From Flavobacterium fragile (lineage in GTDB: Bacteria; Bacteroidota; Bacteroidia; Flavobacteriales; Flavobacteriaceae), in contig NZ_JAMLJN010000002.1 in NCBI RefSeq assembly GCF_023634865.1, positions 310,001 to 374,000 on the forward strand: a stretch of DNA of 64,000 nt, in the 5' to 3' direction. The translations under genes were made by a program, and so were the position numbers. Below, one piece after another: positions 5,012-61,385 of the stretch (its first letter is position 1; the number at the start of each line of letters is the position of its first letter). The notes under the pieces were generated by a model. The model was not told the origin of the DNA. It searched no databases and worked only from the letters and a program-made list of their open reading frames with translations.

Positions 5012-5016
5012 TTTTA

Positions 5017-5033
5017 TTTAGATTAATTCTACA
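5017..5033 (-). promoter_or_regulatory. Candidate metal-regulator operator at receptor promoter
   Basis: The + strand reads TTTAGATTAATTCTACA, which matches the palindrome TTTAGATTnAATCTAAA with two mismatches. It lies just upstream of the receptor ATG and covers the transcription start expected from the -7 box at 5037-5044. A closely related 17-mer occupies the same place before feoA (7598-7614). Binding by the DtxR-type protein encoded at 1143-1790, or by Fur, is inferred. Confidence 0.5.
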
Positions 5034-5036
5034 TTG

Positions 5037-5068
5037 CAAAATTAATTACTAAACTTTATTTAGACAAA
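5037..5068 (-). promoter_or_regulatory. Promoter of the FecA-like receptor gene
   Basis: On the minus strand TTTG (5068-5065), 20 bp, then TAATTTTG (5044-5037) matches the Bacteroidota promoter TTTG-N19-TAnnTTTG. The predicted start near 5030 falls inside the palindrome at 5017-5033. A second, weaker TTTAGA-type half site lies at 5059-5075, over the -33 element. Confidence 0.6.
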
Positions 5069-5254
5069 TTACAAATAATTTTTTTTCTAGATAATTTACG
5101 ATTTATTAATAATAAAATGTTTTAAGTCTTAATTTTAAATATTCGTATAATTAAATCGAAAATGATGAGGTTTTAATTGACGAGATAACTTTTAATTGAT
5201 TAAAATTTGGTAAAAATAGTTCGGAATTTGAATTTCATTATTTTTTTTAGCAAG

Positions 5255-13327: not shown

Positions 13328-13517
13328 CTGTAAAGTCTTATAGTAAAAGCGAATATACAAAAATAATTTCCATTTACAAACGCTTACAAATATTTACAAC
13401 CGATATTAAATAGCTAATTACCGAATAAACTTTTTTTCTCGCCACATCTTTGCACTGTCGAAATGAAACAACGAGTTCAAGTTCAAAAACAAGAGCAAGT
13501 TCAAATTTCAAAACATT

Positions 13518-13557
13518 AGATTTTTTAAATTATTCCAATTTCTTAAATCTGTGTTCC
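13518..13557 (+). repeat. Dispersed ~40-bp palindromic leader element, copy E1
   Basis: An imperfect inverted repeat with arms AGATTTTTTAAATT and AATTTCTTAAATCT around ATTCC, followed by GTGTTCC. It ends 48 bp before the first ssb start. Copies E2 (13961), E3 (37749) and E4 (54360, minus) share this form; E1 and E2 differ at two of 40 positions. The rest of the 278-bp gap 13328-13605 holds GTTCAA-rich sequence and no gene I can support. Confidence 0.75.
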
Positions 13558-13605
13558 AAAAAAGAATCAATATTAATTTTATAAACATTTAAATTTTTAC
13601 ACGCC

Positions 13606-13926
13606 ATGAAAAACAGAGTACAATTAATCGGACATGTAGGTCAAGAACCAGAAATCAAAAACTTAGAATCTGGAAGAGTAGCTAACTTCACAATCGCTAC
13701 GAATGAAAATTACACCAACGCCAAAGGTGAAAAAGTAGAACAAACCGAATGGCACCGCGTTTCCGCTTGGGGAAAAACAGTAGACATTATTGAAAAATTA
13801 TTAACCAAAGGAAGTCACGTTGCCATCGAAGGTAAACTAACCCACAGAAGTTACGACGATAAAGACGGAAACAAACGTTATATCACGGAAGTGGTTGCTA
13901 ATGAATTGGTTTTATTAAGTAAATGA
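13606..13926 (+). CDS. ssb: Single-stranded DNA-binding protein, short paralogue 1
   Basis: This OB-fold protein of 106 residues binds single-stranded DNA. The SSB core is complete: MKNRVQLIGHVGQEPEIKNL, then VANFTIATNENY, TEWHRVSAWGKT and GSHVAIEGKLTHRSYDD. It ends at the last OB strand (VVANELVLLSK), without the flexible linker and acidic DDDIPF-type tail that recruits repair proteins in full-length SSBs (about 150-180 residues). It is therefore likely a second, specialised SSB, with the replicative one encoded elsewhere. A close paralogue follows 113 bp downstream behind a duplicated leader, then an HRDC-domain gene. Confidence 0.92.
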   Translation: MKNRVQLIGHVGQEPEIKNLESGRVANFTIATNENYTNAKGEKVEQTEWHRVSAWGKTVDIIEKLLTKGSHVAIEGKLTHRSYDDKDGNKRYITEVVANELVLLSK

Positions 13927-13960
13927 AATAGATCAAATTCAAGTTCAAAATTCAACACAC

Positions 13961-14000
13961 AGATTTTTTAAGTTATTACAATTTCTTAAATCTGTGTTCC
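13961..14000 (+). repeat. Dispersed palindromic leader element, copy E2
   Basis: Differs from E1 at two of 40 positions. Its outer arms are extended to a perfect ACACAGATTT / AAATCTGTGT pair. It ends 39 bp before the second ssb start. A GTTCAAAATTCAA stretch like that before E1 precedes it, so the leader was duplicated along with the gene. Confidence 0.75.
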
Positions 14001-14039
14001 TAAAAATCAAGTAACACAAACATTAAATATTTATACGCC

Positions 14040-14363
14040 ATGAAAAACTCAGTACTATTAATCGGACACGTTGGTCAAGAACCAGAAATCAAAAACCTTG
14101 AAGGAGGAAAAAAATTAGCAAACATCAGTATCGCTACAAACGAAGTGTATTATCGCGAAAACGGTGATAAAGTGGAACAAACCCAATGGCACCGAGTAAC
14201 TGCTTGGGGCAAAACAGCCGAAATTATCGAACGATTTGTAACCAAAGGAAAAGAAATCGGAATTGAAGGAAAGTTAACCCACAGAAGTTACGACGACAAA
14301 GACGGAAACAAGCGCTATGTTACAGAAGTTGTTGCCAATGAAATTTTGTTAATCGGTAAATAA
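14040..14363 (+). CDS. ssb: Single-stranded DNA-binding protein, short paralogue 2
   Basis: This 107-residue OB-fold SSB is a tandem duplicate of the gene just upstream. The two share LIGHVGQEPEIKNLE, EGKLTHRSYDDKDGNKRY and TEVVANE, but differ in the L45 region (EVYYRENGDKVEQTQ against ENYTNAKGEKVEQTE) and in helix alpha1 (IIERFVTKGKEIG against IIEKLLTKGSHVA). It also lacks an acidic C-terminal tail. The duplicated upstream element supports duplication of a gene-plus-leader unit followed by divergence. The HRDC gene starts 7 bp downstream, so these two are co-transcribed. Confidence 0.92.
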   Translation: MKNSVLLIGHVGQEPEIKNLEGGKKLANISIATNEVYYRENGDKVEQTQWHRVTAWGKTAEIIERFVTKGKEIGIEGKLTHRSYDDKDGNKRYVTEVVANEILLIGK

Positions 14364-33433: not shown

Positions 33434-35776
33434 ATGAAAAAATATATATCTTTCGTTTTAGTACTTTTTACCTTTTTGGCTTCGGCACAAAATCTTCGTT
33501 TAGAAGACATCATGAAAGGAAATGAATTCATCGGGCACCAACCGGATAATCATCGTTGGTCAATCGATGGGCAAACCGTTTTATTCGATTGGAATCCGAA
33601 TAACGAAATAGGAACTAGCACGTATTTCTGGAATTCCACTTTAAAAACACCGCAAAAAGTAACGACTTCAAATCCTATTTACGATTTGGATTTTATGGCA
33701 ACTCAAAAAGAGTATGATGTGGTGTATTATACCAATCAAGGTGTTTTGTATTCGTATACCAAATCCAATAAAAAAACGAAAAAAGTCATTCAATTAGCCG
33801 AACGCATTAATTCGGTGGATAGAAGCAGTAATCCTGATATTATTTTTTTTCAGCAAAATCGCAATGTATATCAATTCAATACCAAAGATTTTTCGATTGT
33901 TCAATTGACCAATTTTAAATCTGGAAAAGAAAATAAAGTTTCAAAAGAAGAAGATTCTTTTTTAAAAAACCAACAGGCAGCATTGTTTCAATTTGTTCGT
34001 GATGAAGAAGCGTCTTCAAAATGGTATGAAGAAAAATCAAAATCTAAAAAAGAGAAATTCCCGAAAGAAATCTATTACGATAAATCTTCGTTAGAGCAAA
34101 TTAAACCCTCGCCAGATGGAAAATTTGTAACCTTCCGTCTTTCAGATTATCCAAATCAGCCCTCAACAAATGTTGAAAACTTCATCACCGCTGATGGTTT
34201 TACACGTCAAGAAAAAGCACGAGCAAAAGTTTCGACATCTAATTTCAGTAAGCATAAATTCGGAATTTTCAATGTCGAAAAAGATACCACGTATTACGTT
34301 TCATTTTCGAATTTAAATGGAATCAAAGACGCACCAAAATACTATCAAGATTACGAAAATCTAAAAGATAAAACGGATTACGAAACGGCTATTGTAATGA
34401 TGAGTCCGGTATATAGTCCAGACGGGAAAAACGCCGTTTTAGAAATCAGAAGTCAAGACAACAAACACCGTTGGATTGTGCAATTGGATTTAACTTCAGG
34501 AAAAATCACCGAGTTAGACCACCAACAAGACGAAGCATGGATTGGCGGACCCGGAATTCCAGGCTATAGTTTCAGTAGCGGAACTTTAGGTTTTATTGAT
34601 AATTCTACTTTTTATTTTCAATCGGAAGCTACTGGTTTTTCGCATTTGTACACATACAATTTTAAAACCAAGAAAAAAGAAGCGTTAACAAAAGGGAATT
34701 GGGAAGTTCGTGAAGTGAAATTAGCCAACGATAAAAAATCATTTTACCTTACGACTACAACAACGCATCCAGGTAACAGAAGTTTTTACAAATTAGACAT
34801 CGCTTCCAAAAAAATGACGGGAATTTTAACCAATGACGGTAACTATGAAGTAGAAGTATCTCCCGATGAAAAAACACTTTTGGTGCGTTATTCGTATAAA
34901 AACAAACCTTGGGAATTATACGTTGGAGCTAATAAGCCAAATTCGGAATTAAAACAAATTACGTTTTCCACTACACCAGAATTCAAAAAATACAATTGGA
35001 AAACACCTGAAGTCATCACCTTTAAAGCCGAAGACGGAACCAATGTTTACGCACGTTTGTACCAACCTAAAATGGAAAATAAGAACAAAGCTGCAGTAAT
35101 TTTTGTTCATGGAGCAGGATATTTGCAAAACGCCCACAATTATTGGAGTACCTACCACAGAGAATACATGTTTCACAACATGTTAACCGATTTAGGCTAC
35201 ACCGTTTTAGACATCGATTACAGAGCTAGTGATGGTTACGGTCGCGATTTTAGAACGGGAATTTACCGTCACATGGGCGGAAAAGATTTATCGGATCAAT
35301 TAGATGGAAAGAAATATTTAGTTCAAAATTTAGGAATAGACGCCAACCGAGTGGGAATTTACGGAGGTTCGTATGGCGGATTCATCACATTGATGGCATT
35401 GCTAACAGAGCCAGGCGAATTCAAAGCTGGAGCTGCTTTACGTTCGGTTACCGATTGGGCGCATTATAATCACGGTTATACGTCAAACATCTTGAATTTC
35501 CCAGAAACTGATCCAGAAGCGTACAAAAAAAGTTCCCCGATTTATTTCGCGAATAACTTACAAGACAAATTGTTAATGTTACACGGAATGGTAGACGATA
35601 ACGTGCAATTTCAAGACATTGTTCGATTGACGCAACGTTTCATCGAATTAGGTAAAAAAGATTGGGATTTAGCAGTTTTCCCAGTAGAAGCACACGGTTT
35701 CACAGAAACGTATTCTTGGGTTGACGAATACCGAAGAATTTTAAATTTATTCAACGAAAATCTATTACAAAAATAA
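33434..35776 (+). CDS. S9 family prolyl oligopeptidase (DPP4-like), exported
   Basis: This 780-residue serine peptidase is exported via a signal peptide (MKKYISFVLVLFTFLASAQ). The N-terminal half (residues about 30-520) is a DPP4-type beta propeller. The C-terminal alpha/beta hydrolase domain has the catalytic Ser in GGSYGGF (about 646), Asp in MVDDNVQF (about 720) and His in VEAHGF (about 753). Propeller Glu residues that bind the substrate N-terminus in DPP4 are plausible in FQFVRDEEASSKW. Dipeptidyl peptidases of this type cleave X-Pro dipeptides from oligopeptides in the periplasm. The GNAT gene begins one base after its stop. Confidence 0.95.
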   Translation: MKKYISFVLVLFTFLASAQNLRLEDIMKGNEFIGHQPDNHRWSIDGQTVLFDWNPNNEIGTSTYFWNSTLKTPQKVTTSNPIYDLDFMATQKEYDVVYYTNQGVLYSYTKSNKKTKKVIQLAERINSVDRSSNPDIIFFQQNRNVYQFNTKDFSIVQLTNFKSGKENKVSKEEDSFLKNQQAALFQFVRDEEASSKWYEEKSKSKKEKFPKEIYYDKSSLEQIKPSPDGKFVTFRLSDYPNQPSTNVENFITADGFTRQEKARAKVSTSNFSKHKFGIFNVEKDTTYYVSFSNLNGIKDAPKYYQDYENLKDKTDYETAIVMMSPVYSPDGKNAVLEIRSQDNKHRWIVQLDLTSGKITELDHQQDEAWIGGPGIPGYSFSSGTLGFIDNSTFYFQSEATGFSHLYTYNFKTKKKEALTKGNWEVREVKLANDKKSFYLTTTTTHPGNRSFYKLDIASKKMTGILTNDGNYEVEVSPDEKTLLVRYSYKNKPWELYVGANKPNSELKQITFSTTPEFKKYNWKTPEVITFKAEDGTNVYARLYQPKMENKNKAAVIFVHGAGYLQNAHNYWSTYHREYMFHNMLTDLGYTVLDIDYRASDGYGRDFRTGIYRHMGGKDLSDQLDGKKYLVQNLGIDANRVGIYGGSYGGFITLMALLTEPGEFKAGAALRSVTDWAHYNHGYTSNILNFPETDPEAYKKSSPIYFANNLQDKLLMLHGMVDDNVQFQDIVRLTQRFIELGKKDWDLAVFPVEAHGFTETYSWVDEYRRILNLFNENLLQK

Positions 35777-35777
35777 A

Positions 35778-36203
35778 ATGTCACAGTTAATAGAATTAGG
35801 AACTAAAGCCGAAATGTTAGAGCAATTGCCTATCATTCAACAGTTGTATCCTGATTATACGCTTGAAATTTATGGGAATTTGCTAGACAAAATGATTCCG
35901 CACAATTATAAACAATTAATTGTAGTCGAAAACGGAATCACAATGGGTTTGGCAGGATTTTGGATTGGAACAAAATTGTGGTGCGGAAAATACTTAGAAA
36001 TGGATAATGTGGTCGTACATGAAGATTTTCGTTCTAAAGGAATAGGAAGTATTATGACGAATTATCTCAATCAAAAAGCCATTGATGAAGATTGTAACAT
36101 GATAGCTTTAGATGCTTACACGACCAATTTTGGAGCCCAAAAATTCTACATGAATCACGGATTTGTTCCCAAAGGGTTTCATTTTGTGAAATACTTGAAG
36201 TAA
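35778..36203 (+). CDS. GNAT family N-acetyltransferase
   Basis: This 141-residue acetyl-CoA-dependent transferase has the GNAT fold. Strand beta4 and the acetyl-CoA loop are seen as KYLEMDNVVVHEDFRSKGIG, including the R-x-x-G-I-G pyrophosphate loop, followed by SIMTNYLNQKA. The last strand is FYMNHGFVPKGFHFVKYL. The acceptor is unknown. It starts one base after the S9 peptidase stop, so both are on one transcript. Confidence 0.88.
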   Translation: MSQLIELGTKAEMLEQLPIIQQLYPDYTLEIYGNLLDKMIPHNYKQLIVVENGITMGLAGFWIGTKLWCGKYLEMDNVVVHEDFRSKGIGSIMTNYLNQKAIDEDCNMIALDAYTTNFGAQKFYMNHGFVPKGFHFVKYLK

Positions 36204-36276
36204 CCGAATCTAATCTTGGATATGCTTCGCTAAAACCTAAGTTTTAACTACATTTGTTAAATAAAAATTAAGTAAT

Positions 36277-37734
36277 TTGAGTTCAGGAAAAAGCCTTTTT
36301 AAACAAACCTTAATCTATGGATTGGCAACAGTTTTGCCAAGAATGCTTAGTTTTCTGCTGGTACGATTATATACAGATTATTTGCCAAACAAAGAATATG
36401 GCGAAGTTTCTGTAATTTTTTCATATTTAGTTTTTTTCAATGTAGTTTTATCTTATGGAATGGAAACGGCTTTTTTTCGATTTTATAATTCGGAAGAGAA
36501 CAAAGGAAAAGTAATTTCAACCTCTTCAATTTCTATCTTATGGTCAACAATTGGATTCTTAGCCTTGTTTCTCTTGTTCCGAAATAACTTAGCGCTTTGG
36601 TCAGAAATTAAGGTAGAATACATCGTTTTCACGATTTGGATTTTAGCTTTAGATGCACTAGCGATTATTCCATTTTCTAAAATTAGAGCCGAAAGCCGTC
36701 CTGTGAAATACGCTTTTATTAAAATATTTAATGTTGTAATCAATTTATCTTTAAATGTTTTCTTCTTAGCTTTTTTACCAAAATGGGCTGAAAATACAGA
36801 TAGTATAATAGTACAATCTATCTATTTTGAGAATTTTCAAATTGGTTATATTTTCGTTTCAAGTTTAATCGCAAGTTTAGTAACATTATTATTCGTTTTA
36901 CCCGATTATTTCAAAATCAAATGGCAATTTGATGCTGACTTGTGGAAGAAAATGATGAAATACGGTTTACCCATTTTAGTAGCCGGAATTGCATTCGCAA
37001 TCAACGAACATTTCGATAAAATCTTATTGGATTGGATGCAAGTCGATATGGCTGATATTGGAGCCTATTCCGCTTGTTATAAAATAGGGATGTTTATGGT
37101 GTTGTTCCGAACCGCTTATTCTTTAGGAATTGAACCGTTTTTCTTTAGTCATGCTAAGAATGAAAATGCACCTCAAACCTACGCTACGATTACCAAGTAT
37201 TTTGTCATTTTTGGTTCGTTTATTTGCTTAGGCGTTATTGTTTTTGCCGATATTTTGAAATTGATTTTGGTGCCGAAAGAAACATATTGGGATGCGATGG
37301 ATGTGGTTCCATTAATTGTGTTGGCTAATTTCTTTTTAGGTATTTACACCAATTTATCCATTTGGTACAAATTAATCGATAAAACTAGAGTGGGAGCTTA
37401 TATTTCAATTGTTGGAGCTATAGTAACTTTAGTTTTAAACTTGATTTTAATTCCATTCATCAGTTATGTGGGTTCTGCAATTGCTACCATTTTGGCTTAC
37501 GGAACCATGATGTTTATTTCGTATTACATGGGACAAAAAAAATATCCAATTCCATACGATAAGAAATCCATTTTTACTTATTTAGGATTAGCGATAGTAC
37601 TTTCTGGAATTTCATTTTATGTGCCCATTTTACGCGAAACTTATGTCTTTGGAATTGCAGCTATCTTGTTTTTTGCTTACTTTGTGTACCGAAACGAAAA
37701 AGAAACCATTTTAACGATTATCAGAAGAAAATAA
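36277..37734 (+). CDS. Polysaccharide flippase (Wzx/MOP superfamily)
   Basis: This 485-residue inner-membrane protein has 12-14 helices. It is of the oligosaccharidyl-lipid flippase type and begins LFKQTLIYGLATVLPRMLSF, the usual Wzx N-terminus. Other features are an internal repeat of six- or seven-helix units and a long hydrophobic C-terminus. It would flip lipid-linked sugar units for O-antigen, capsule or exopolysaccharide. The gene starts at TTG (36277); no ATG preserves the first helix. dut and a sugar nucleotidyltransferase gene follow, which fits a cell-envelope gene group. Confidence 0.9.
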   Translation: MSSGKSLFKQTLIYGLATVLPRMLSFLLVRLYTDYLPNKEYGEVSVIFSYLVFFNVVLSYGMETAFFRFYNSEENKGKVISTSSISILWSTIGFLALFLLFRNNLALWSEIKVEYIVFTIWILALDALAIIPFSKIRAESRPVKYAFIKIFNVVINLSLNVFFLAFLPKWAENTDSIIVQSIYFENFQIGYIFVSSLIASLVTLLFVLPDYFKIKWQFDADLWKKMMKYGLPILVAGIAFAINEHFDKILLDWMQVDMADIGAYSACYKIGMFMVLFRTAYSLGIEPFFFSHAKNENAPQTYATITKYFVIFGSFICLGVIVFADILKLILVPKETYWDAMDVVPLIVLANFFLGIYTNLSIWYKLIDKTRVGAYISIVGAIVTLVLNLILIPFISYVGSAIATILAYGTMMFISYYMGQKKYPIPYDKKSIFTYLGLAIVLSGISFYVPILRETYVFGIAAILFFAYFVYRNEKETILTIIRRK

Positions 37735-37748
37735 TAACTTTGAATTAT

Positions 37749-37790
37749 AGATTTGGTAAGAATTTCTCCAATTTCTAAAATCTGTGTTCC
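37749..37790 (+). repeat. Dispersed palindromic leader element, copy E3
   Basis: A more degenerate 42-bp copy, beginning AGATTTGGTAAG and ending CTAAAATCTGTGTTCC. It ends 18 bp before the dut start codon and is in the same orientation as the gene, as for E1 and E2 before the ssb genes. Confidence 0.65.
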
Positions 37791-37808
37791 AAAAAAAAAG
37801 AATTAAAA

Positions 37809-38243
37809 ATGCAAATCAAAATTATCAATAAATCCAATCACGAGTTACCTAACTACGAAACTATCGCTTCAGCAGGAATGGATTTACGTGCGAATATTTC
37901 AGAACCCATCACTTTAAAATCACTAGAAAGAACCATCGTAAAAACCGGACTTTTCATTGAATTGCCAATAGGTTACGAAGCACAAGTACGTCCAAGAAGC
38001 GGTTTGGCAGCTAAGAAAGGAATCACAGTGTTAAATTCACCCGGAACAATTGATGCGGATTACCGAGGAGAAATTGGTGTGATTTTAGTAAATTTATCCA
38101 ATGAAGATTTTGTCATCGAAAACGGAGAAAGAATCGCCCAATTAATTATCGCCAAACACGAAAGAGCAGAATGGATTGAAGTAACCGAATTGTCAGAAAC
38201 TTCTAGAGGAGAAGGCGGTTTTGGTAGTACGGGAGTGAAGTAA
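37809..38243 (+). CDS. dut: Deoxyuridine triphosphate nucleotidohydrolase (dUTPase)
   Basis: This 144-residue homotrimeric dUTPase keeps uracil out of DNA and supplies dUMP for dTMP synthesis. Five conserved motifs are present: [11 protein letters not shown] (1), [12 protein letters not shown] (2), [20 protein letters not shown] (3), [11 protein letters not shown] (4) and [10 protein letters not shown] (5). Length is standard. A palindromic leader element precedes it by 18 bp. It is transcribed with, or just after, the flippase gene. Confidence 0.97.
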
Positions 38244-38340
38244 AGTGTTCAGTGTTCAGCCCCAGTTAGCAGTTTGTCTGACTGAGCGGAGTCGAAGTCT
38301 CAAGTATAAAGTGTTCAGAAAAAATATCAAAATAGAATCT
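38244..38340. repeat. Intergenic repeat cluster after dut
   Basis: Contains GTGTTCAGTGTTCAG, CAGTTAGCAGT and GAGCGGAGTCGAAG. CAGTTAGCAGT recurs at 49443-49453, and GAGCGGAGTCGA (38284-38295) recurs inside the SDR coding region (12069-12080). No gene is visible in this 130-bp gap. Confidence 0.55.
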
Positions 38341-38373
38341 TAGCGAACTTTGCATTTAAAATAAAAATATATC

Positions 38374-39384
38374 ATGAAAATAATTGTACCTATGGCAGGT
38401 CGTGGTTCACGCCTTCGTCCACATACCTTAACCGTTCCAAAACCATTAATTCCAGTAGCAGGAAAACCTATCGTTCACCGATTAGTAGAGGATATTGCTG
38501 GCGTTTTAAATCAGAAAATAGACGAAGTGGCGTTTATTATTCATGAGAGTTTTGGTAAACAAGTAGAAGCAGATTTAATTGCTATTGCCCAAAAATTAGG
38601 AGCAAGAGGAACCATTTACTATCAAAACGAAGCACTAGGAACGGGTCACGCGATTATGTGTGCGAAAGATTCATTGGAAGGTCCAGCGGTTATCGCTTAT
38701 GCGGATACGTTAATTCGTGCGGATTTTGATTTAGACACAACTGCCGATAGCGTAATTTGGGTAAAACAAGTCGACCAACCTGAAGCTTTTGGTGTGGTAA
38801 ACTTAAATGAAAAAGGTGAAATTATCGAATTGGTAGAGAAACCTAAAGAATTTGTATCCGATTTAGCCGTAATCGGAATTTACTATTTTAAAGATATTGC
38901 GGTTTTGAAAAACGAATTACAATCGGTATTAGACAACAACATCATTCACGGTGGCGAATACCAAATTAATGATGGTATTAAACAAATGATGGCAAAAGGC
39001 ATGAAATTTGTACCAGGACAGGTAGACGAGTGGATGGATTGTGGAAATAAAGATGTTACAGTAGAAACCAATACTAGAATGTTAGGTTTTTTATATAACG
39101 ATGGAGAAAATTTAGTTTCGGCTGATGTGAAATTAGAGAATTCAACTATTATTCCACCATGTTATATAGGGGAAGATGTAGTTTTGATTAATGCAACCGT
39201 AGGTCCAAATGTTTCATTAGGAAAAGGATGTCATGTTATTGATTCAACAATAAAAAATAGTTTGATTCAAACTCACGCACATATCAAAAATGCCAATCTA
39301 GATAATGCAATGATAGGAAATCATGTGAATTTTGATGGCAATTTTACAAGTATAAGTATTGGTGATTATTCGGTTTTAGAATAA
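38374..39384 (+). CDS. Sugar-1-phosphate nucleotidyltransferase
   Basis: This 336-residue enzyme makes an NDP-sugar from a sugar-1-phosphate. The nucleotidyltransferase domain begins with the signature IIVPMAGRGSRLRPHTLTVP KP (positions about 2-24, containing GxGxRLxxxT and the PKP motif). It continues with GTGHAIMCAKDSL and a metal-site region YADTLIRADFD. The C-terminal 90 residues are a left-handed beta-helix acyltransferase-like domain (hexapeptide repeats, e.g. NSTIIPPCYIGEDVVLINA). Base specificity (dTTP, UTP or GTP) is not decided by eye. The last 17 residues (FDGNFTSISIGDYSVLE) are encoded twice: here and again at 40078-40132, suggesting that the current 3' end was acquired with the next gene. 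Confidence 0.9.
   Translation: MKIIVPMAGRGSRLRPHTLTVPKPLIPVAGKPIVHRLVEDIAGVLNQKIDEVAFIIHESFGKQVEADLIAIAQKLGARGTIYYQNEALGTGHAIMCAKDSLEGPAVIAYADTLIRADFDLDTTADSVIWVKQVDQPEAFGVVNLNEKGEIIELVEKPKEFVSDLAVIGIYYFKDIAVLKNELQSVLDNNIIHGGEYQINDGIKQMMAKGMKFVPGQVDEWMDCGNKDVTVETNTRMLGFLYNDGENLVSADVKLENSTIIPPCYIGEDVVLINATVGPNVSLGKGCHVIDSTIKNSLIQTHAHIKNANLDNAMIGNHVNFDGNFTSISIGDYSVLE
39330..39383 (+). repeat. 54-bp direct repeat, copy A (3' end of nucleotidyltransferase gene)
   Basis: Starts TTTTGATGGCAATTTTACAA. Copy B lies at 40078-40131. The two copies differ at only two positions, both synonymous in the nucleotidyltransferase frame (ATA/ATT and GGT/GGA). The repeats bracket the lipoprotein gene at 39430-40083. 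Confidence 0.9.
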
Positions 39385-39429
39385 TGTTTTGAAGTTTTGT
39401 ATTACAATGTTTAATTGAGCATTAAAAAA

Positions 39430-40083
39430 ATGAGTTTAGGAATTTGTAGTGTAAATAAAAAGCACTTAAAATTGGTGATGATTTTTTCATCATTGAGTTT
39501 ACTAATGGCTTTAATTAGTTGTAATAAAGACAATAAAAAAACAACTTTAAAAATTGAAAATAACTACAAACAAAAAACCATATCAACCAACAATGATTTT
39601 TTAATTTATAAAAAGGGCGTTTCAGGTATAAAAATTGGCGAGAATTTACCCGATAAAATAAACAAATATGAGTATTTTAAATCTCATAAATTAGTTGAAG
39701 AAGGAAATGTAGAACCAATAGTTAAAATATTGCATAATAAAGATACGTTATTTGAGGTGAGTTTTGTTTATGATTTAGAAAATCAAAATTTTAATGATAG
39801 AATTTCTGAAATTTTAATAAAAAGTAAAAAGTTTAAAACTAAAGAAAACATCGGTGCATCATCTACTATTGAAGATTTTATTAAAGAATATCCAAACTAT
39901 TTTATTTGGTACACATATATTAGTAATAATTATGTAATACAATCTAAAGATTTAGAGATTCAATTTTTGCTTAATGAAAAAGATTATATTGGTAAAAAAG
40001 ATTTAATGACAGGTGATATGGTTGAATTAGAATTAAAGGATTTTAAACCTTATTCAAAAATTAAAGCAATAAGAATCTTTTGA
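39430..40083 (+). CDS. Lipoprotein of unknown function on an inserted segment
   Basis: This predicted lipoprotein is 217 residues from the ATG at 39430 (a TTG five codons upstream is also possible). A hydrophobic segment ends LLMALISC, a lipobox with the modified Cys near residue 32 (MIFSSLSLLMALISC could also be the true start, ATG 39478). The mature protein is Lys/Asn-rich: FLIYKKGVSGIKIGENLPDK, DTLFEVSFVYDLENQ and IGASSTIEDFIKEYPNY. No family was recognised. The gene is AT-rich by eye and lies between two 54-bp direct repeats made of the 3' end of the nucleotidyltransferase gene. Next to the second repeat the TPR gene starts at once, as it must have before the insertion. Confidence 0.7.
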   Translation: MSLGICSVNKKHLKLVMIFSSLSLLMALISCNKDNKKTTLKIENNYKQKTISTNNDFLIYKKGVSGIKIGENLPDKINKYEYFKSHKLVEEGNVEPIVKILHNKDTLFEVSFVYDLENQNFNDRISEILIKSKKFKTKENIGASSTIEDFIKEYPNYFIWYTYISNNYVIQSKDLEIQFLLNEKDYIGKKDLMTGDMVELELKDFKPYSKIKAIRIF

Positions 40084-40132
40084 TGGCAATTTTACAAGTA
40101 TTAGTATTGGAGATTATTCGGTTTTAGAATAG
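40078..40132 (+). pseudogene. Residual 3' end of the nucleotidyltransferase gene (repeat copy B)
   Basis: The frame reads FDGNFTSISIGDYSVLE then TAG, identical in protein to the end of the intact gene. The TAG (40130-40132) directly abuts the ATG of the TPR gene. This is best read as the original 3' end, left behind when a segment carrying another 3' end plus the lipoprotein gene was inserted. Confidence 0.85.
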
Positions 40133-41473
40133 ATGATAAAGAAAACACACATAGCTTTTTTGGCGTTCCTGCTTTTTAGTTTTGGGAATCACTTGTTTGC
40201 ACAAGACAATCCCGATGCAATTGCTTTGGTGGACGACCAACTGGAAAATAATTTTTACGAAGCCATGAAGCAACGTGGCATCGAAAATTACGATAAAGCT
40301 ATAGTAGCCATTCAAAAATGTATTGAAAAAGAACCTACTAACGCCGCTTTTCAATATGAGTTAGGTAAAAATTATTTGAGCCTAAAAAACTATGTTGATG
40401 CTGAAAGTGCCTTTAAAAAAGCAGTCGAGTTAGACAACAAGCAACGTTGGTATTGGAATGGTTTGTATGATGTGTATTATCAAACGAAAGATTTTCAAAA
40501 ATCGATTCCGATTGTAGAGAAATTAATTGAGTTTGATGCCAACATGAAAGAAGATTTGGTTTCGCTTTACATGAATACTAATCAGCACGCGAAAGCCTTA
40601 GAGTTATTGAATAATATGGAGTCATCTTCAAAATTGACACGTACAATGGAATTCTATAAGCTAAGATTACAGGAAACAAATAAACTTGCTAAGCCACAAA
40701 AAGAACAATTGGAAGATGCGATTAAAAAAAATCCTAAAGTGGAACAAAATTATATCGATCTGATTGTTTTTTACACGAATTTAAATCAAGAAGAAAAAGC
40801 ATTTGAGGTAGCGAAACAATTGGAAAGAGAAATCCCAAGTTCTGATTGGGCTCATGTGAGTTTGGTGAAATTTCATTTGAATAATAACGACGGAGAAAAC
40901 GCTTCAAAATCCATGTTCAAAGTTTTGGAAAACGATCGAATGGATTTAAAAATCAAACATCGTGTTTTTAATGAGTTTTTAATTTTTGCAGTTAAAAATT
41001 CAACCTATTTAAAAGAAATCGATAAAGCAATTCCGTATTTTGATAACGACAAAGAAATCAATGTAGCCAAAGAAGTAGCTAAATTTTTCTGGAAAAAGAA
41101 CGATTTAGAAAAAACAGCTTACTATTTTGAAAAAGCGCTTAAAAAAAATTCGGATGATATAGATGCAATGGAATTGTATTTAGAAGTGTTAATTCAGAAG
41201 CAAGATTTTCTGTTGGTAACAAAAAAATCAGAAGAATATTTAGAGTCTTTTCCCACGCAATCAGGATTTTATTTTTATGCGGGTTTAGGATATAACCAAC
41301 TAAAAGAATATAAAAAAGCTAAAAACAATCTTGAAAACGGCTTAGATTTTGTAGTGGAAAATCCATCATTAGAAGCTAATTTTTACAAACAGTTAATTAT
41401 CAGTTGCGAAAATTTAAATGATAATGCTAAAAAGCAAGTGTATACCAACAAGTTAAAGCAATTACAAAAATAA
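40133..41473 (+). CDS. Exported TPR protein
   Basis: This 446-residue protein has a signal peptide (MIKKTHIAFLAFLLFSFGNHLFAQ) and then tetratricopeptide repeats over most of its length, for example AAFQYELGKNYLSLKNYVDA, RWYWNGLYDVYYQTKDFQKS and SGFYFYAGLGYNQLKEYKKA. It may scaffold envelope complexes; similar genes are found next to DUF4292 and EnvC-like genes in flavobacteria. The start codon follows at once after a stop codon (TAGATG), and the DUF4292 gene begins directly at its own stop, giving a tight nucleotidyltransferase-TPR-DUF4292-EnvC operon. Confidence 0.85.
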   Translation: MIKKTHIAFLAFLLFSFGNHLFAQDNPDAIALVDDQLENNFYEAMKQRGIENYDKAIVAIQKCIEKEPTNAAFQYELGKNYLSLKNYVDAESAFKKAVELDNKQRWYWNGLYDVYYQTKDFQKSIPIVEKLIEFDANMKEDLVSLYMNTNQHAKALELLNNMESSSKLTRTMEFYKLRLQETNKLAKPQKEQLEDAIKKNPKVEQNYIDLIVFYTNLNQEEKAFEVAKQLEREIPSSDWAHVSLVKFHLNNNDGENASKSMFKVLENDRMDLKIKHRVFNEFLIFAVKNSTYLKEIDKAIPYFDNDKEINVAKEVAKFFWKKNDLEKTAYYFEKALKKNSDDIDAMELYLEVLIQKQDFLLVTKKSEEYLESFPTQSGFYFYAGLGYNQLKEYKKAKNNLENGLDFVVENPSLEANFYKQLIISCENLNDNAKKQVYTNKLKQLQK

Positions 41474-42238
41474 ATGAAGTCGATATTATCAGCCTTTTTA
41501 GTCTTTTTTTTAATAGGATGTAAATCTAAACAAGCCGTAGCTACTGCTGCTGCAAGTGAAAATACTGAAGTTTTTAAAGTAATTAAAGGTCATTACAACA
41601 ACCAACAAGATTTTAAAACTTTAAGCATAAGAGCTAATGCCAAATATGAGGATGCCAAACAATCACATTCTATGAATGCGGATATTCGCATCAAGAAAGA
41701 TGAAATTATTTGGATAAACATTAAGTTCTTAGGAATTCCTATGGCAAAAGCGATGATAACTCCTACAAAAGTAAGTTATTATGAAAAGATAAATAATTCC
41801 TATTTTGAAGGTGATTTTAGCGTATTGAGCAGTTGGTTAGGAACCGATTTAGATTTTAATAAAGTACAAAATTTGTTTTTAGGAAAAGCTATAGATGACT
41901 TAACTAAAGAACGTTGGGTTTCTGAAGTAGTGGAGAATATGTTTAAATTATCGCTTCCTAATAATGCTGATATTACAAAAGAATTTTATTTTGAAGGAGC
42001 CAATTATTTATTGAAAAAAGAAACAATAGTTCAAGCAAGTAAAAATCGAAATTTAGAAATTCATTACCCATCCTTTAAGGAAGATAAGGGGATGTTTTTA
42101 CCAAATGAAATCAACATTAAAGCCGAACAAAAAGATCAAGTTTCTATTGATATTGTATTCAAACACACAACATTTGATGAAAATTTGAGTTATCCTTATT
42201 CAATACCTAATGGTTATTCTAAAGTTGAAATCGATTAA
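41474..42238 (+). CDS. DUF4292 lipoprotein
   Basis: This 254-residue lipoprotein (MKSILSAFLVFFLIGC, lipidated Cys near 16) is of the DUF4292 family, which has a LolA/LolB-like beta half-barrel. Support comes from TLSIRANAKYEDAKQSHSMN, DEIIWINIKFLGIPMAKAMI and the late LSYPYSIPNGYSKVEID. A role in lipoprotein or lipid handling at the outer membrane is suggested by fold only. It directly abuts the TPR gene and precedes the EnvC-like gene by 45 bp. Confidence 0.82.
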   Translation: MKSILSAFLVFFLIGCKSKQAVATAAASENTEVFKVIKGHYNNQQDFKTLSIRANAKYEDAKQSHSMNADIRIKKDEIIWINIKFLGIPMAKAMITPTKVSYYEKINNSYFEGDFSVLSSWLGTDLDFNKVQNLFLGKAIDDLTKERWVSEVVENMFKLSLPNNADITKEFYFEGANYLLKKETIVQASKNRNLEIHYPSFKEDKGMFLPNEINIKAEQKDQVSIDIVFKHTTFDENLSYPYSIPNGYSKVEID

Positions 42239-42259
42239 TTTTTTTTAAACTAAAAAAAC

Positions 42260-42267
42260 TACCTTTG
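42260..42267 (+). promoter_or_regulatory. -7 promoter box before the EnvC-like gene
   Basis: TACCTTTG matches TAnnTTTG, 16 bp before the ATG at 42284. It may provide expression in addition to read-through from upstream. Confidence 0.4.
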
Positions 42268-42283
42268 TAAAAATCTTGGATGC

Positions 42284-43516
42284 ATGAATCAATTCTTTAA
42301 AATTCTATTTTTCTTTTTTATCACAACCTTATGTTTTGCTCAACCTTCAGAACAGCAAAAACTAGAGGAACGCAAAGCCCAAATTCTAAAAGAAATTTCC
42401 GAAAACAGATTGCGTTTGGAAGCTGAGAAAAAGAAAGAAAAATCAGTTTTAGGACAAATTAATCAACAAAAAAAATTGATTCAATTGCGTGAAAAGTTAC
42501 TGAATACAACAGCAAAACAAACACGCATTTTAACGGATGAAATCTATTTAACTCAATTAGAAATGAATAAGTTAAATAGAGAATTGAAAGTCCTAAAAGA
42601 AGATTACGAAAAGATGATTGTAAAATCATACAAAAGTAGAAATGAGCAAAGTAGAATTATGTTCATACTTTCTTCAGAAAATTTTTTGCAAGCGTACAAA
42701 AGAATTCAGTACATGAAGCAATATGCTGACTTCAGAAAAATGCAAGGAGAGGAAATTAAAGAAAAGCAGCAAAAATTAGCAGAATCCGAGAAAAGATTAT
42801 CTGAAAGTAAGAAAGAAAAAGAAGTGGTTCTGCAACAAACCGAAAAAGAAAAGCAAGAATTAGAAAAAGAGAAAAAGGAACAAGAGCGTTTAGTCTCCTT
42901 AATTCAGAAAGATAAAAAGAAATTAACTGCTGAAATAAATAAAAAACAAAAAGAAGCTAAGGCTATCGATGCAAAAATTAAAAAATTAATTGCAGCAGAA
43001 ATCGCAGCCGCAAACAAACGAAACGCAGAAAAAACTGGAAAAACTGCGCCAAAAGCTGGAACAACAGCCGCTTCAAAATTTGTTTTAACAACGGAAGGGA
43101 AAGTGGTTTCAGATAATTTTAAAGCTAACCGAGGTAAATTGCCTTGGCCAGTTGCAGATGGGTATATTTCATTAAAATACGGAGATCAACCACACCCTGT
43201 TCATAAAAATTTGGTTATACACAACAGTGGGGTTGAAATTACAACCAAACCAGGCGCTTCTGCAAGAGCTGTTTTTGGTGGAGATGTTTTACAAGTTCAA
43301 GTGATTTCGGCAAACAATAAAGCAGTATATATTCAGCACGGGGATTTTATTACGGTATATTTGAATTTATCATCCGTTAGTGTTTCAAAAGGACAAAAAG
43401 TTAGCATCAAGCAAAATATTGGTAAAATTCACACCGATTCTTCAGGAAATGCCGTGATTAAGTTTTTAGTATTACAAAATACTACAACATTAAATCCAGA
43501 ATCTTGGTTAAATTAA
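42284..43516 (+). CDS. EnvC-like murein hydrolase activator with degenerate M23 domain
   Basis: This 410-residue periplasmic protein has a signal peptide (MNQFFKILFFFFITTLCFAQ). A very long coiled coil covers about 20-240 (EKKKEKSVLGQINQQKK; KEKQELEKEKKEQER). A LytM/M23-type domain spans about 290-410. The zinc-binding HxxxD and HxH motifs of active M23 enzymes are replaced: HNSGVEITT has Glu for Asp, and the late motif is IKFLVLQNT. The domain is therefore probably catalytically inactive, as in E. coli EnvC, which activates amidases through FtsEX. A terminator follows. Confidence 0.88.
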   Translation: MNQFFKILFFFFITTLCFAQPSEQQKLEERKAQILKEISENRLRLEAEKKKEKSVLGQINQQKKLIQLREKLLNTTAKQTRILTDEIYLTQLEMNKLNRELKVLKEDYEKMIVKSYKSRNEQSRIMFILSSENFLQAYKRIQYMKQYADFRKMQGEEIKEKQQKLAESEKRLSESKKEKEVVLQQTEKEKQELEKEKKEQERLVSLIQKDKKKLTAEINKKQKEAKAIDAKIKKLIAAEIAAANKRNAEKTGKTAPKAGTTAASKFVLTTEGKVVSDNFKANRGKLPWPVADGYISLKYGDQPHPVHKNLVIHNSGVEITTKPGASARAVFGGDVLQVQVISANNKAVYIQHGDFITVYLNLSSVSVSKGQKVSIKQNIGKIHTDSSGNAVIKFLVLQNTTTLNPESWLN

Positions 43517-43522
43517 AAAAGT

Positions 43523-43550
43523 ATGGGGTCTTGTTGACCTCATTTTTTTT
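43523..43550 (+). terminator. Intrinsic terminator after the EnvC-like gene
   Basis: ATGGGGTC (43523-43530) pairs with GACCTCAT (43536-43543), one G-T wobble, 5-nt loop, followed by T8. Confidence 0.8.
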
Positions 43551-43567
43551 AGATATTTGTAACAAAT

Positions 43568-44530
43568 ATGAATGTAAACAACATCAAAATACTTCACATC
43601 GATAGCAATCATCCCTTACTTTGGGAACAATTACAACAAGCTGGTTTTCAAAATGAAGCTGATTTTACTTCCTCCAAACAAGAAGTAGAAGCTAAAATTG
43701 AAAACTATCATGGTATTGTCATTCGTAGTCGTTTTAAAATTGATAAAACCTTTTTAGATAAAGCCACTAATTTGCAATTCATCGCTCGTGTTGGCGCAGG
43801 TTTAGAAAGTATCGATTGTGATTACGCTACAGCGAAAGGAATTCATTTAATCGCTGCTCCAGAGGGAAATGCAAATGCCGTTGGCGAACACGCTATCGGA
43901 ATGTTGTTGTCACTTTTTAATAACTTGAACAAAGCCAATAACGAAGTAAAATCAGGTCAATGGAAACGTGAAGCCAATCGCGGTCACGAATTAGAAGGCA
44001 AAATCATCGGAATTATCGGTTATGGTAACATGGGAAAATCATTCGCAAAAAAATTACGCGGATTTGATGTAACCGTTTTGTGCCATGATATTTTACCTAA
44101 CATGGGAGATGCTAATGCCACTCAAGTTTCATTATCTGAACTTCAAGAAAGAGCTGATGTTTTAAGTTTACACACACCTTGGACGCCTGAAACTGATAAG
44201 ATGATAAAGGCTGATTTTATTAATCAATTTAAAAAACCATTTTGGTTGATTAATACCGCAAGAGGAAATTCGGTTGTAACGGCTGATTTGGTGGAAGCCT
44301 TGAAATCAGGTAAAATTTTAGGTGCAGGTTTAGATGTTTTGGAATACGAAAAACTATCTTTTGAAACGTTGTTTGAAGGTGAAAAACCAGCCGCTTTCGA
44401 ATATCTTTTAGAAGCAGAAAACGTATTATTAACACCACATATAGCAGGTTGGACTTTTGAAAGTCATCAGAAATTAGCTCAGACTATTGTGGAAAAGATT
44501 TGTAAGATTTATATAAAAACAAAAGGCTAA
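43568..44530 (+). CDS. D-2-hydroxyacid dehydrogenase (SerA/phosphoglycerate dehydrogenase-like)
   Basis: This 320-residue NAD-dependent dehydrogenase has the usual two-domain fold. The substrate domain holds VIRSRFKIDKTFLDKATNLQ and FIARVGAGLESID. The Rossmann loop is IIGIIGYGNMGKSFAKKL. Catalytic Arg is in INTARGNSVV, Glu follows in LDVLEYE, and His is in LTPHIAGWTFES. Length fits the short SerA-like group without an ACT domain. Serine synthesis is the likeliest role, but D-lactate or hydroxypyruvate are also possible. Its last codons lie in one arm of a palindrome shared with the end of the convergent OlsF-like gene. Confidence 0.85.
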   Translation: MNVNNIKILHIDSNHPLLWEQLQQAGFQNEADFTSSKQEVEAKIENYHGIVIRSRFKIDKTFLDKATNLQFIARVGAGLESIDCDYATAKGIHLIAAPEGNANAVGEHAIGMLLSLFNNLNKANNEVKSGQWKREANRGHELEGKIIGIIGYGNMGKSFAKKLRGFDVTVLCHDILPNMGDANATQVSLSELQERADVLSLHTPWTPETDKMIKADFINQFKKPFWLINTARGNSVVTADLVEALKSGKILGAGLDVLEYEKLSFETLFEGEKPAAFEYLLEAENVLLTPHIAGWTFESHQKLAQTIVEKICKIYIKTKG

Positions 44531-44547
44531 TCAATTGATTAGCCTTT
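44522..44547. terminator. Perfect 26-bp palindrome holding the ends of two convergent genes
   Basis: AAAGGCTAATCAA and TTGATTAGCCTTT form a perfect 13-bp inverted repeat. It contains the stop codon of the dehydrogenase (TAA 44528-44530) and, on the other strand, the stop of the OlsF-like gene (44541-44539). Both proteins end in Lys-Gly. C/T-rich tails follow, and it probably works as a bidirectional terminator. Confidence 0.75.
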
Positions 44548-46329
44548 CTCTTTTCTTTCCAATTCCGCTTGAAATTCTTCCATAACGGGTTTCACGGTAC
44601 TTTCGGGTAAATCTGCAATTTTAATGTACATTAAGCCATCAACTGAATTGTTGAATAATGGGTCCACATTAAAAGCCACTACTCTTGCGTTTTGTTTGAT
44701 GTATTTTTTAATTAAAACTGGCAAACGTAAATTTCCTGGTTCTACTTCATCAATTATTTTGTCAAACTTATTCAAATCGGCTTCGGTTTCGTTGAAAACG
44801 AAATCTTTGTCGGCGTCTTTCAGTTTTACTTTGTATTCTTTTTTCGGGTGAACATATTGCGCAATGTACGGGTCGTAATAATGCGACTTCATAAATTCAA
44901 TCATCAACGATTTTGAAAAATCCGAGAATTGATTACTAATACTTACGCCACCAATTAAATATTTATGTTCTGGATAGTGTAAAGTTGTGTGTACAATTCC
45001 CTTCCATAATAGGAACAAAGGCATTGGTTTTTGTTGGTATTCTTTAATGATGAATGCTCTACCCATTTCGATAGATTTACTCATCATATCGTATAATTCT
45101 GGTTCAAAACGGAACAATTCATGCAAATAAAATCCGTCAATTCCGTATTGTGAATAAATGCGAGAACCTAATCCCATTCGATATGCACCAGCAATACATT
45201 GTGCCTCATCATCCCATAAAAACATATGGTGATAATATTTATCGTAATTGTCAAGATCTAACGATTCGTTCGTCCCTTCACCAACTTCTCTAAATGTAAT
45301 TTCTCGCAAACGTCCAATTTCGTGTAAGATATTTGGAATTTTATCAGCCGTTACAAAATAAACTTCATAATTTTTACTTTGTAATAGGCGATAATCTCCT
45401 TTTTTTAAACAAGCCATTTCCTCCAAAATTTGGTCATGATTTGCTGGCTTTGCAATTTGTTTAGGAGGTTTTGGAATACTTAATTTTGGTAAATTAATTT
45501 TGCTTTCATCTTCAAAAGCGTTTGAAAGCATGTAGGTTTTCTTGCGTAAAAAATCGCCATAACTTTCAATATCTTGGTATTCATTTTGTTCGTTTACCGA
45601 AATAGGTTTTCCAATGCGAACTTTAATTATTCTATCTTTTTGAGTAAGTAATTCGCTTGGTAATTTAGCGGTTCTTAGTGTGTCATCAATTTTAGATAAG
45701 AAGTAAAATAATTTACTGTTCTTAGCATGAAAATAAATCGGAACCACAGGAACTTGTGCTTTTCTAATCACTTTGATAGCGCCTTCTTCCCAAGGTTTAT
45801 CGACTACTAATTTACCATCTTTATAAGTTGAAACTTCTCCTGCAGGAAACATTCCTAAAGGCTTTCCATCGCTTAAATGGCGTAATGTTTCTTTGATTCC
45901 AACTACGCTTGATTTGGCATCTTTATGATTTTCAAACGGATTAACCGGCATGATGTACGGCTTCATCGGTTCGATTCGGTGCAGTAAAAAATTGGCGATA
46001 ATTTTGAAATTAGGTTCTCTTTCTAACATTAATTTCAATAATAAAATACCATCAATACCACCAAGTGGATGATTGGAAATGGTAATGTAAGGTCCTTCTT
46101 TGGGTAGACGTTTTAAATCTTCTTCAGGGATTTCAAATTTGATTTGGAATTCGTCTAAAATGGCATTTAAAAATTCCAAATCGCTCAAATGTTTATTTCT
46201 ATCATAAATTTTATTTAATGTAGAAATCTTGAGCACTTTCATAAGCAACCAGCCCGAAAAAGTACCGAAAACCCCATATTTATCAGCATTTATTGCTTTT
46301 GCAACTTCTTTAGCAGTAACTAACCCCAT
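44539..46329 (-). CDS. olsF: Bifunctional aminolipid acyltransferase (OlsF-like)
   Basis: This 596-residue fusion has an N-terminal PlsC-type acyltransferase (NHPLGGIDG, the H-x4-D motif with His about 86; later MFPAGEVS) and a C-terminal GNAT/hemolysin-type N-acyltransferase from about residue 320 (REITFREVGEGTNES, then CIAGAYRMGLG and EMGRAFI). OlsF proteins, described in Serratia and Flavobacterium, make ornithine lipids in two steps: the C-terminal part acylates the amino acid and the N-terminal part adds the second chain. Ornithine, glycine or related lipids would be membrane components here. The ATG at 46329 is preceded by a TTG, which I did not use. Its end lies in a terminator palindrome. 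Confidence 0.85.
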   Translation of the reverse strand: MGLVTAKEVAKAINADKYGVFGTFSGWLLMKVLKISTLNKIYDRNKHLSDLEFLNAILDEFQIKFEIPEEDLKRLPKEGPYITISNHPLGGIDGILLLKLMLEREPNFKIIANFLLHRIEPMKPYIMPVNPFENHKDAKSSVVGIKETLRHLSDGKPLGMFPAGEVSTYKDGKLVVDKPWEEGAIKVIRKAQVPVVPIYFHAKNSKLFYFLSKIDDTLRTAKLPSELLTQKDRIIKVRIGKPISVNEQNEYQDIESYGDFLRKKTYMLSNAFEDESKINLPKLSIPKPPKQIAKPANHDQILEEMACLKKGDYRLLQSKNYEVYFVTADKIPNILHEIGRLREITFREVGEGTNESLDLDNYDKYYHHMFLWDDEAQCIAGAYRMGLGSRIYSQYGIDGFYLHELFRFEPELYDMMSKSIEMGRAFIIKEYQQKPMPLFLLWKGIVHTTLHYPEHKYLIGGVSISNQFSDFSKSLMIEFMKSHYYDPYIAQYVHPKKEYKVKLKDADKDFVFNETEADLNKFDKIIDEVEPGNLRLPVLIKKYIKQNARVVAFNVDPLFNNSVDGLMYIKIADLPESTVKPVMEEFQAELERKEKG

Positions 46330-61172: not shown

Positions 61173-61196
61173 CACTCGCTAAAAAGATAAATATCT

Positions 61197-61270
61197 TCCT
61201 CCTTAGCTCAGTTGGTTAGAGCATCTGACTGTTAATCAGAGGGTCCTTGGTTCGAGCCCAAGAGGGGGAG
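61197..61270 (+). tRNA. tRNA-Asn (GTT), copy 1
   Basis: A 74-nt cloverleaf. The acceptor TCCTCCT pairs with AGGGGGA, followed by discriminator G. The anticodon loop CTGTTAA gives GTT, and the T arm is CTTGG-TTCGAGC-CCAAG. No CCA is encoded: the next bases are CAA. It is identical to the second copy 35 bp downstream. Confidence 0.97.
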
Positions 61271-61305
61271 CAACTTTTTAGCAAAACACAAACCTTTGAG
61301 GTGAT

Positions 61306-61379
61306 TCCTCCTTAGCTCAGTTGGTTAGAGCATCTGACTGTTAATCAGAGGGTCCTTGGTTCGAGCCCAAGAGGGGGAG
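61306..61379 (+). tRNA. tRNA-Asn (GTT), copy 2
   Basis: Identical in all 74 positions to the first copy, with no encoded CCA. The two probably share one transcript from the promoter at 61142-61172, ending at the terminator at 61386. Confidence 0.97.
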
Positions 61380-61385
61380 CAAAAA

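Follow-up and report, generated by a model that had tools for sequence, protein, structure and literature searches.

A predicted lipoprotein gene between two alleles of a neighbouring gene end in Flavobacterium fragile

Introduction

Some prophages and genomic islands, among them e14 and phage 21 (both at icd) and SCC (at orfX), use the 3' end of a gene as their point of entry and restore it. Integrases that make use of gene ends keep the target gene whole.

Insertion with long target duplication is the name given to gene gain beside a duplicated stretch in Helicobacter pylori, where it was described for restriction-modification genes (Nobusato et al. 2000, as cited in the accessible passages of PMC1643837, PMC4978471, and PMC3031569). 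A second described process, homology-facilitated illegitimate recombination, brings in unrelated DNA beside a homologous stretch, and matches of 3-10 bp are usual at the illegitimate joints (accessible text of PMC3240628). According to the same text these one-sided events mostly delete resident DNA of similar size, leaving no duplication. It also describes an E. coli experiment in which 56 of 60 clones carried a duplication, and these were assigned to a single crossover. Displaced gene ends are also described in T6SS immunity arrays of Vibrio cholerae, where they have been explained by a mechanism akin to homology-facilitated illegitimate recombination, and orphaned 3' regions are described at Rhs loci (accessible text of PMC5361080). 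Below, we describe a locus in Flavobacterium fragile where a single predicted lipoprotein gene lies between two versions of the end of its neighbour.

A duplicated gene end around a lipoprotein gene

The window, which is the whole 64,000-bp stretch that was analysed (contig NZ_JAMLJN010000002.1, positions 310,001 to 374,000), contains on its plus strand a nucleotidyltransferase gene of 336 aa (38374..39384) whose end is duplicated. The product belongs to the NTP_transferase family (Pfam PF00483, E 3.5e-28), and its hexapeptide-type Pfam matches are weak. The repeat spans the 54 bases of the gene up to and including the second base of its stop codon. The proximal copy (39330..39383, plus strand) is part of the intact gene, and the distal copy (40078..40131, plus strand) lies 748 bp away. 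The copies are identical at 52 of 54 positions and flank one lipoprotein gene, just as the earlier note had described; its statement that they specify the same 17 residues with two synonymous differences is borne out by translation, as each encodes FDGNFTSISIGDYSVLE followed by a stop, and both differences fall at third codon positions. The proximal copy ends in TAA (39382-39384) and the distal copy in TAG (40130-40132). The TAG is abutted by the ATG at 40133 of a TPR-repeat protein gene (40133..41473, plus strand; placed by its ORF and Pfam), the next gene in the ancestral order, for which the distal copy is still the leader. In the rest of the window, with 39000-40200 left out, the next-best ungapped match to the 54-mer has 22 mismatches on the plus strand and 23 on the other; as all such matches have at least 22 mismatches, chance is excluded as the source of the repeat.

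Between the two copies are a 45-bp spacer (39385..39429, plus strand; 21% GC over 39385-39432), which gave chance-level matches only in a search of the fetched loci, and the gene for a predicted lipoprotein of 217 aa (39430..40083, plus strand; 22% GC). This gene starts with the ATG at 39430, and its N-terminus is common to the homologues P0001 and P0003. Its TGA stop codon (40081-40083) lies inside the distal copy. Alignment of the copies places the right joint at TTTTGA (40078..40083, plus strand), six bases with which the lipoprotein gene closes and the displaced gene end opens. Homologues of the lipoprotein have the same C-terminal IRIF or IRIY, so the lipoprotein ends at the joint without loss.

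Two further repeats were seen elsewhere in the window. At 61196-61382 there are two identical 78-bp copies, 109 bp apart from start to start, and 13496-14361 holds a direct repeat of adjacent copies of about 430 bp with 78% identity.

Identifying the resident end

To determine which copy is native to the site, the locus was compared with 18 clade loci (L004, L005, L006, L007, and L016, which are named, and L085-L097). These represent 16 species, since L004 and L087 share a contig, as do L016 and L096. The distal copy has no mismatch in 54 positions to the allele of the nearest species (G023, locus L085), and the proximal copy has two departures from the clade bases. Thirteen clade loci are nearer to the distal than to the proximal copy, five are tied, and none is farther. 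At both differing sites, the distal copy carries the base common to all six core relatives; the nucleotidyltransferase gene as a whole departs from this six-relative core at 17 sites, both copy differences included. The proximal bases are present elsewhere in the clade, 981A in L119, L120, L005, and L007 and 990T in L124.

The arrangement of the relatives is simple. In 17 of the 18 clade loci the nucleotidyltransferase gene leads directly into the TPR gene with nothing between, the gene end being single-copy and the cargo absent. The direct junction reads TAG-ATG in 13 loci and TAA-ATG in four; the remaining locus, L006, has TAA and other cargo. The earlier note had taken the distal TAG-ATG to be the ancestral junction, and the relatives agree with it. 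Because the distal copy carries the clade allele and the relatives have the direct junction, this copy is the resident end of the nucleotidyltransferase gene, displaced from the gene and still in its original place. The proximal end was probably brought in with the cargo. The comparison shows that the two copies are two alleles and that the relatives preserve the empty site.

The wider genus was surveyed with a 63-bp probe in 398 genomes, two candidates being scored per genome; 317 genomes matched and 81 did not. Among the matches listed, a second copy near the nucleotidyltransferase end occurs in this genome only, and a repeat search of the 32 other two-match genomes, with all candidates scored, found no genuine nearby second copy. 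An extra gene-end match in G249 (30 bp, 87%, 1.7 kb downstream) lies inside a DUF4292-type gene and was taken as chance. An old internal duplication of the gene end, with the cargo splitting the copies later, would explain why both encode the same 17 residues, but the distal, non-coding copy is unchanged relative to the G023 allele and it is the coding copy that has two changes; among the matches listed, moreover, a second nearby copy is absent from every other genus genome that was examined. As judged from these alignments, such a duplication already seems contradicted, and we give it almost no credence. Two outcomes had been named in advance as ones that would count against recombination, namely that all relatives carry both copies and the cargo or that the copies are equidistant from the relatives, and neither occurred.

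The cargo and its relatives

The lipoprotein has a signal peptide and a LISC lipobox, both read by eye, and has no Pfam family that could be found. Its AlphaFold2 model has a mean pLDDT of 64.7, and a Foldseek search of this model against the PDB gave no match at E <=0.001, the best being E. coli YfeY (2qzb) at 0.015. We leave the cargo as a predicted envelope protein. The GC content of the insert is 22.3% compared with 32.7% for the window.

Relatives of the lipoprotein are few. Of 299 genus genomes, two gave a match, namely this genome and, with a weak and partial match, G239; of 150 relatives, two did so as well (this genome and a weak match from another family). A profile search found it in 18 of the 397 genomes of a family-wide draw, strongly in four besides this genome. 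A search of 5.8 billion proteins gave 20 relatives, of which the best full-length match, P0001, is 92% identical. Shortened, near-identical forms of 182 aa (P0002) and 141 aa (P0004) are on short contigs. The four strong family-level homologues (L145-L148) have different genomic surroundings, and at E 0.01 no repeat flanks them; there was no match among plasmids, phages, or viral contigs. No donor genome with the lipoprotein gene behind the nucleotidyltransferase gene was found in the genomes searched. By its composition and distribution, the cargo looks foreign.

Other cargo was expected at this site in related strains, and the expectation held in part. In three of 80 named loci (L006, L023, and L025) the nucleotidyltransferase and TPR genes are separated by more than 300 bp; the predicted cargo variety is there, but a gene-end repeat was seen at none of the three junctions. 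In L006, from Flavobacterium sp. LMO8, the junction (5013-5440) holds a 123-aa ORF without a Pfam family above the cut-off. In L023 (5055-5644) and L025 the same place is taken by a PIN-domain gene (in L023, the one tested, PF01850 at E 8.8e-15) together with a small ORF, an insert that is antitoxin-toxin-like. The first 58 bp of the L006 TPR gene do not align to the five clade sequences tried and the remainder does, so that the L006 cargo looks like an import with its right-hand crossover inside the TPR gene. The remaining named loci have junction gaps of at most 166 bp, apart from L011, which has no TPR match. In 98 longer loci, none of the repeats listed involves the nucleotidyltransferase end. 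AT-rich repeats were observed upstream of the nucleotidyltransferase gene in L006, L018 (many copies), L020, L021, L039, and L121.

Additional displaced ends in the genome

A scan for 3' ends was carried out over two contigs, C12 (450,770 bp) and C25 (147,706 bp), which together cover about 598 kb and 418 ORFs of at least 150 aa. An ORF was scored as positive if a copy of its last 90 bases occurred within 5 kb downstream. Two ORFs only were positive, the nucleotidyltransferase and a fumarase. The mirror control, which looked upstream of each of the same 418 ORFs, gave none. A random control of 4168 pairings gave 11 matches, all at full score, which are taken to be stretches containing the query itself.

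The fumarase gene (C12:283134-281533, minus strand, outside the window; PF05681 and PF05683) belongs to an arrangement spanning C12:280197-283134 (L167:197-3134). Behind the gene is one opposite-strand AAA_14-DUF4143 gene, followed by a 37-bp copy of the fumarase end that continues as a different fumarase C-terminus and terminator. The displaced piece matches the fumarase end and flank of G254 over 161 bp at 93%, whereas it matches the fumarase end of its own genome over no more than 37 bp, a terminator-like match of 41 bp being separate. This far better match to G254 excludes copying from the present gene, and the displaced end is that of an allele type that the gene no longer has. In G115 the same cargo lies in the same place (87% over 1561 columns), and the displaced end there is of the other type and longer. 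The fumarase end is without this adjacent cargo in 11 other relatives, and G377 gave a short match only.

A third case concerns a leader rather than a gene end. A 60-bp repeat of 90% identity, in the leader of a PadR gene (PF03551), surrounds an insert at C12:254606-256987 (L165:14606-16987), also outside the window. The insert is 2.3 kb long and contains an HTH-DUF4870 gene and others. The leader is single-copy and free of an insert in G380, G032, G310, and G199; the insert is mostly present in G115, seven relatives matched one outer flank only, and G377 matched nothing. The three cases fit one scheme, suggested by these alignments, in which an incoming gene end or leader is added together with its cargo and the resident version is left behind.

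Other repeats of this general appearance were recorded. The first part of a gene recurs as a 125-bp, 86% repeat at C12:182301 and C12:184742 (to 184866, L162), with small ORFs between; this was set aside, as relatives carry arrays of related genes there. At C25:73582 (minus strand), 39 bp of a gene leader have an exact second copy about 1.4 kb upstream. Also noted were a 5'-end match at C12:224524 and a leader match at C12:81411; all three matches are in classes that have no random control.

It could be argued that such loci are the work of a site-specific element with an attachment site that restores the 3' end of its target, as the earlier note had offered as one option. The target gene is indeed whole in both 3'-end cases, as it is with gene-end integrases. 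However, no recombinase was found among the seven Pfam-scanned ORFs of 34000-46000, the sole ORF of at least 80 aa in the insert is the lipoprotein gene and not an integrase, and the 54-mer contains neither of the core sites of an integron cassette (GTTRRRY or RYYYAAC). An insertion sequence fits no better, since the insert has no transposase and the repeat is 54 bp long and imperfect. In addition, no sequence common to the repeats of the three cases was noticed, and homologues of the fumarase cargo that lie elsewhere in G067 and G115 have no strong flanking gene-end repeat. The bare flanks of the lipoprotein homologues in L145-L148 and the absence of plasmid, phage, or viral-contig matches for the lipoprotein point the same way, and we regard a site-specific element as very improbable.

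How the gene may have arrived

An additive event that displaced the end of the nucleotidyltransferase gene is very probable. The earlier note had named recombination with a related strain as its first option, and this is well supported by the match of the distal copy to the resident allele, the foreign-looking cargo, and the empty sites. We propose that the cargo was added by one-sided recombination with DNA of a related Flavobacterium, to which we assign a probability of about 0.6. The donor would have carried the lipoprotein gene behind its own nucleotidyltransferase allele. On the left, homology within the nucleotidyltransferase gene would have anchored the incoming DNA; on the right, the short match TTTTGA would have linked the end of the lipoprotein gene to the resident gene at a point 54 bp ahead of the resident stop. 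The product would be a nucleotidyltransferase gene made whole by the donor end, with the last 54 resident bases displaced to the far side, and a TPR gene that keeps its usual 54 bases upstream. This route is preferred because one step suffices and the whole gene is available as an anchor. The 6-base match at the right joint, part of which may be plain resident sequence, is within the range usual for illegitimate joints. Against the one-sided route is the deletion, rather than duplication, that such events mostly leave in the accessible text of PMC3240628.

When the nucleotidyltransferase gene was compared with 16 relatives by mosaic analysis, no left-hand donor tract was located, so the alignment that was meant to show where the donor allele begins gave no boundary. 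The nearest relative shifts along the gene, as in a recombining clade, and the departures from the core are spread along it. In its last quarter, the nucleotidyltransferase gene has the joint-lowest third-position GC of 17 sequences (none of the 16 relatives is lower and one is equal), which is only a hint of donor DNA, since the DUF4292 gene, too, has a stretch with the lowest value. Genes of the comEC and dprA families are present, which permits DNA uptake and says little, as they are also found in 10 and 11, respectively, of 14 control genomes, E. coli included.

Alternatively, donor DNA limited to the 54-bp gene end and the cargo may have been closed at TTTTGA into a small circle of 748 bp and then integrated by a single crossover, which would lie in the 24 identical bases with which the repeat begins. 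Such an event is expected to duplicate the shared segment, the repeat ends exactly at the joint, and recircularised DNA gave duplications of 109-950 bp in the 14 sequenced clones of 56 in E. coli (accessible text of PMC3240628). Our 54 bp is nevertheless below every duplication length in that experiment, the crossover would be confined to 24 bp, and two steps would be needed. We consider the circle, with its crossover so placed, possible but unlikely.

A related strain may also have already had the gene end, cargo, and displaced end as a ready-made block, which then moved by two-sided recombination with crossovers in the flanks. A 92%-identical lipoprotein does exist elsewhere (P0001), L006 has other cargo together with the non-aligning start of its TPR gene, and the fumarase insert is common to G115 and this genome and absent from that place in 11 other relatives. 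This explanation merely moves the first event elsewhere, though, and the second copy near the gene was seen in this genome only among the matches listed for the 398 genus genomes (81 without a probe match). Transfer of a finished block is, in our view, rather doubtful. One-sided recombination, a single crossover, and a ready-made block would all yield the same product, and the present sequences do not separate them.

Relation to described insertions

Like e14, phage 21, and SCC, the DNA that arrived here would have brought a synonymously changed gene end and left the old end on its far side. Unlike those elements, which carry an integrase, none was found at this locus.

The pattern fits insertion with long target duplication. 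As in the H. pylori examples of the accessible passages cited above, a gene is present in one strain and absent from another, and the long direct repeat that flanks it is single-copy where the cargo is missing. The cargo differs, being a predicted lipoprotein rather than restriction-modification genes, an association that is frequent in this class and not defining in those passages. The pattern also resembles homology-facilitated illegitimate recombination, in which, as far as the accessible text of PMC3240628 goes, unrelated DNA likewise enters next to homologous sequence and has a short match at its opposite joint. TTTTGA, part of which may be resident, lies within the 3-10 bp that most such matches span; the deletion of resident DNA that is general, although not invariable, in these events is replaced here by a duplication of 54 bp with no loss. 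In the V. cholerae arrays and the Rhs loci (accessible text of PMC5361080) an incoming gene and its cargo similarly displace a resident 3' end, but the genes displaced are variable effectors, whereas here a conserved housekeeping gene kept its protein sequence and gained an unrelated neighbour. Our literature searches, which were not aimed at Flavobacterium by name and so are weak on this point, found no such case in that genus.

It is conceivable, and we offer it tentatively, that displaced gene ends act as recombination handles. Cargo would then behave like a cassette that has no recombinase. A piece made up of gene end, cargo, and displaced end could enter any empty site through ordinary recombination, with both neighbours unharmed, and recombination between the repeats could precisely remove the cargo. 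The fumarase insert, which has different resident ends behind it in two species, would be an example of spread of this type. If true, this idea would account for the movement of orphan genes between strains in the absence of mobile elements.

This locus is a further instance of an already known kind of insertion. A plain duplication cannot reveal which gene end is resident and which is incoming; where the copies are two alleles, as they are here, the two can be told apart. Displaced gene ends can thus mark the gain of single genes in conserved operons, and its direction, and this genome has more than one such mark. Because its two alleles give a direction and further cases are found in the same genome, this instance is more useful than a plain member of the kind.
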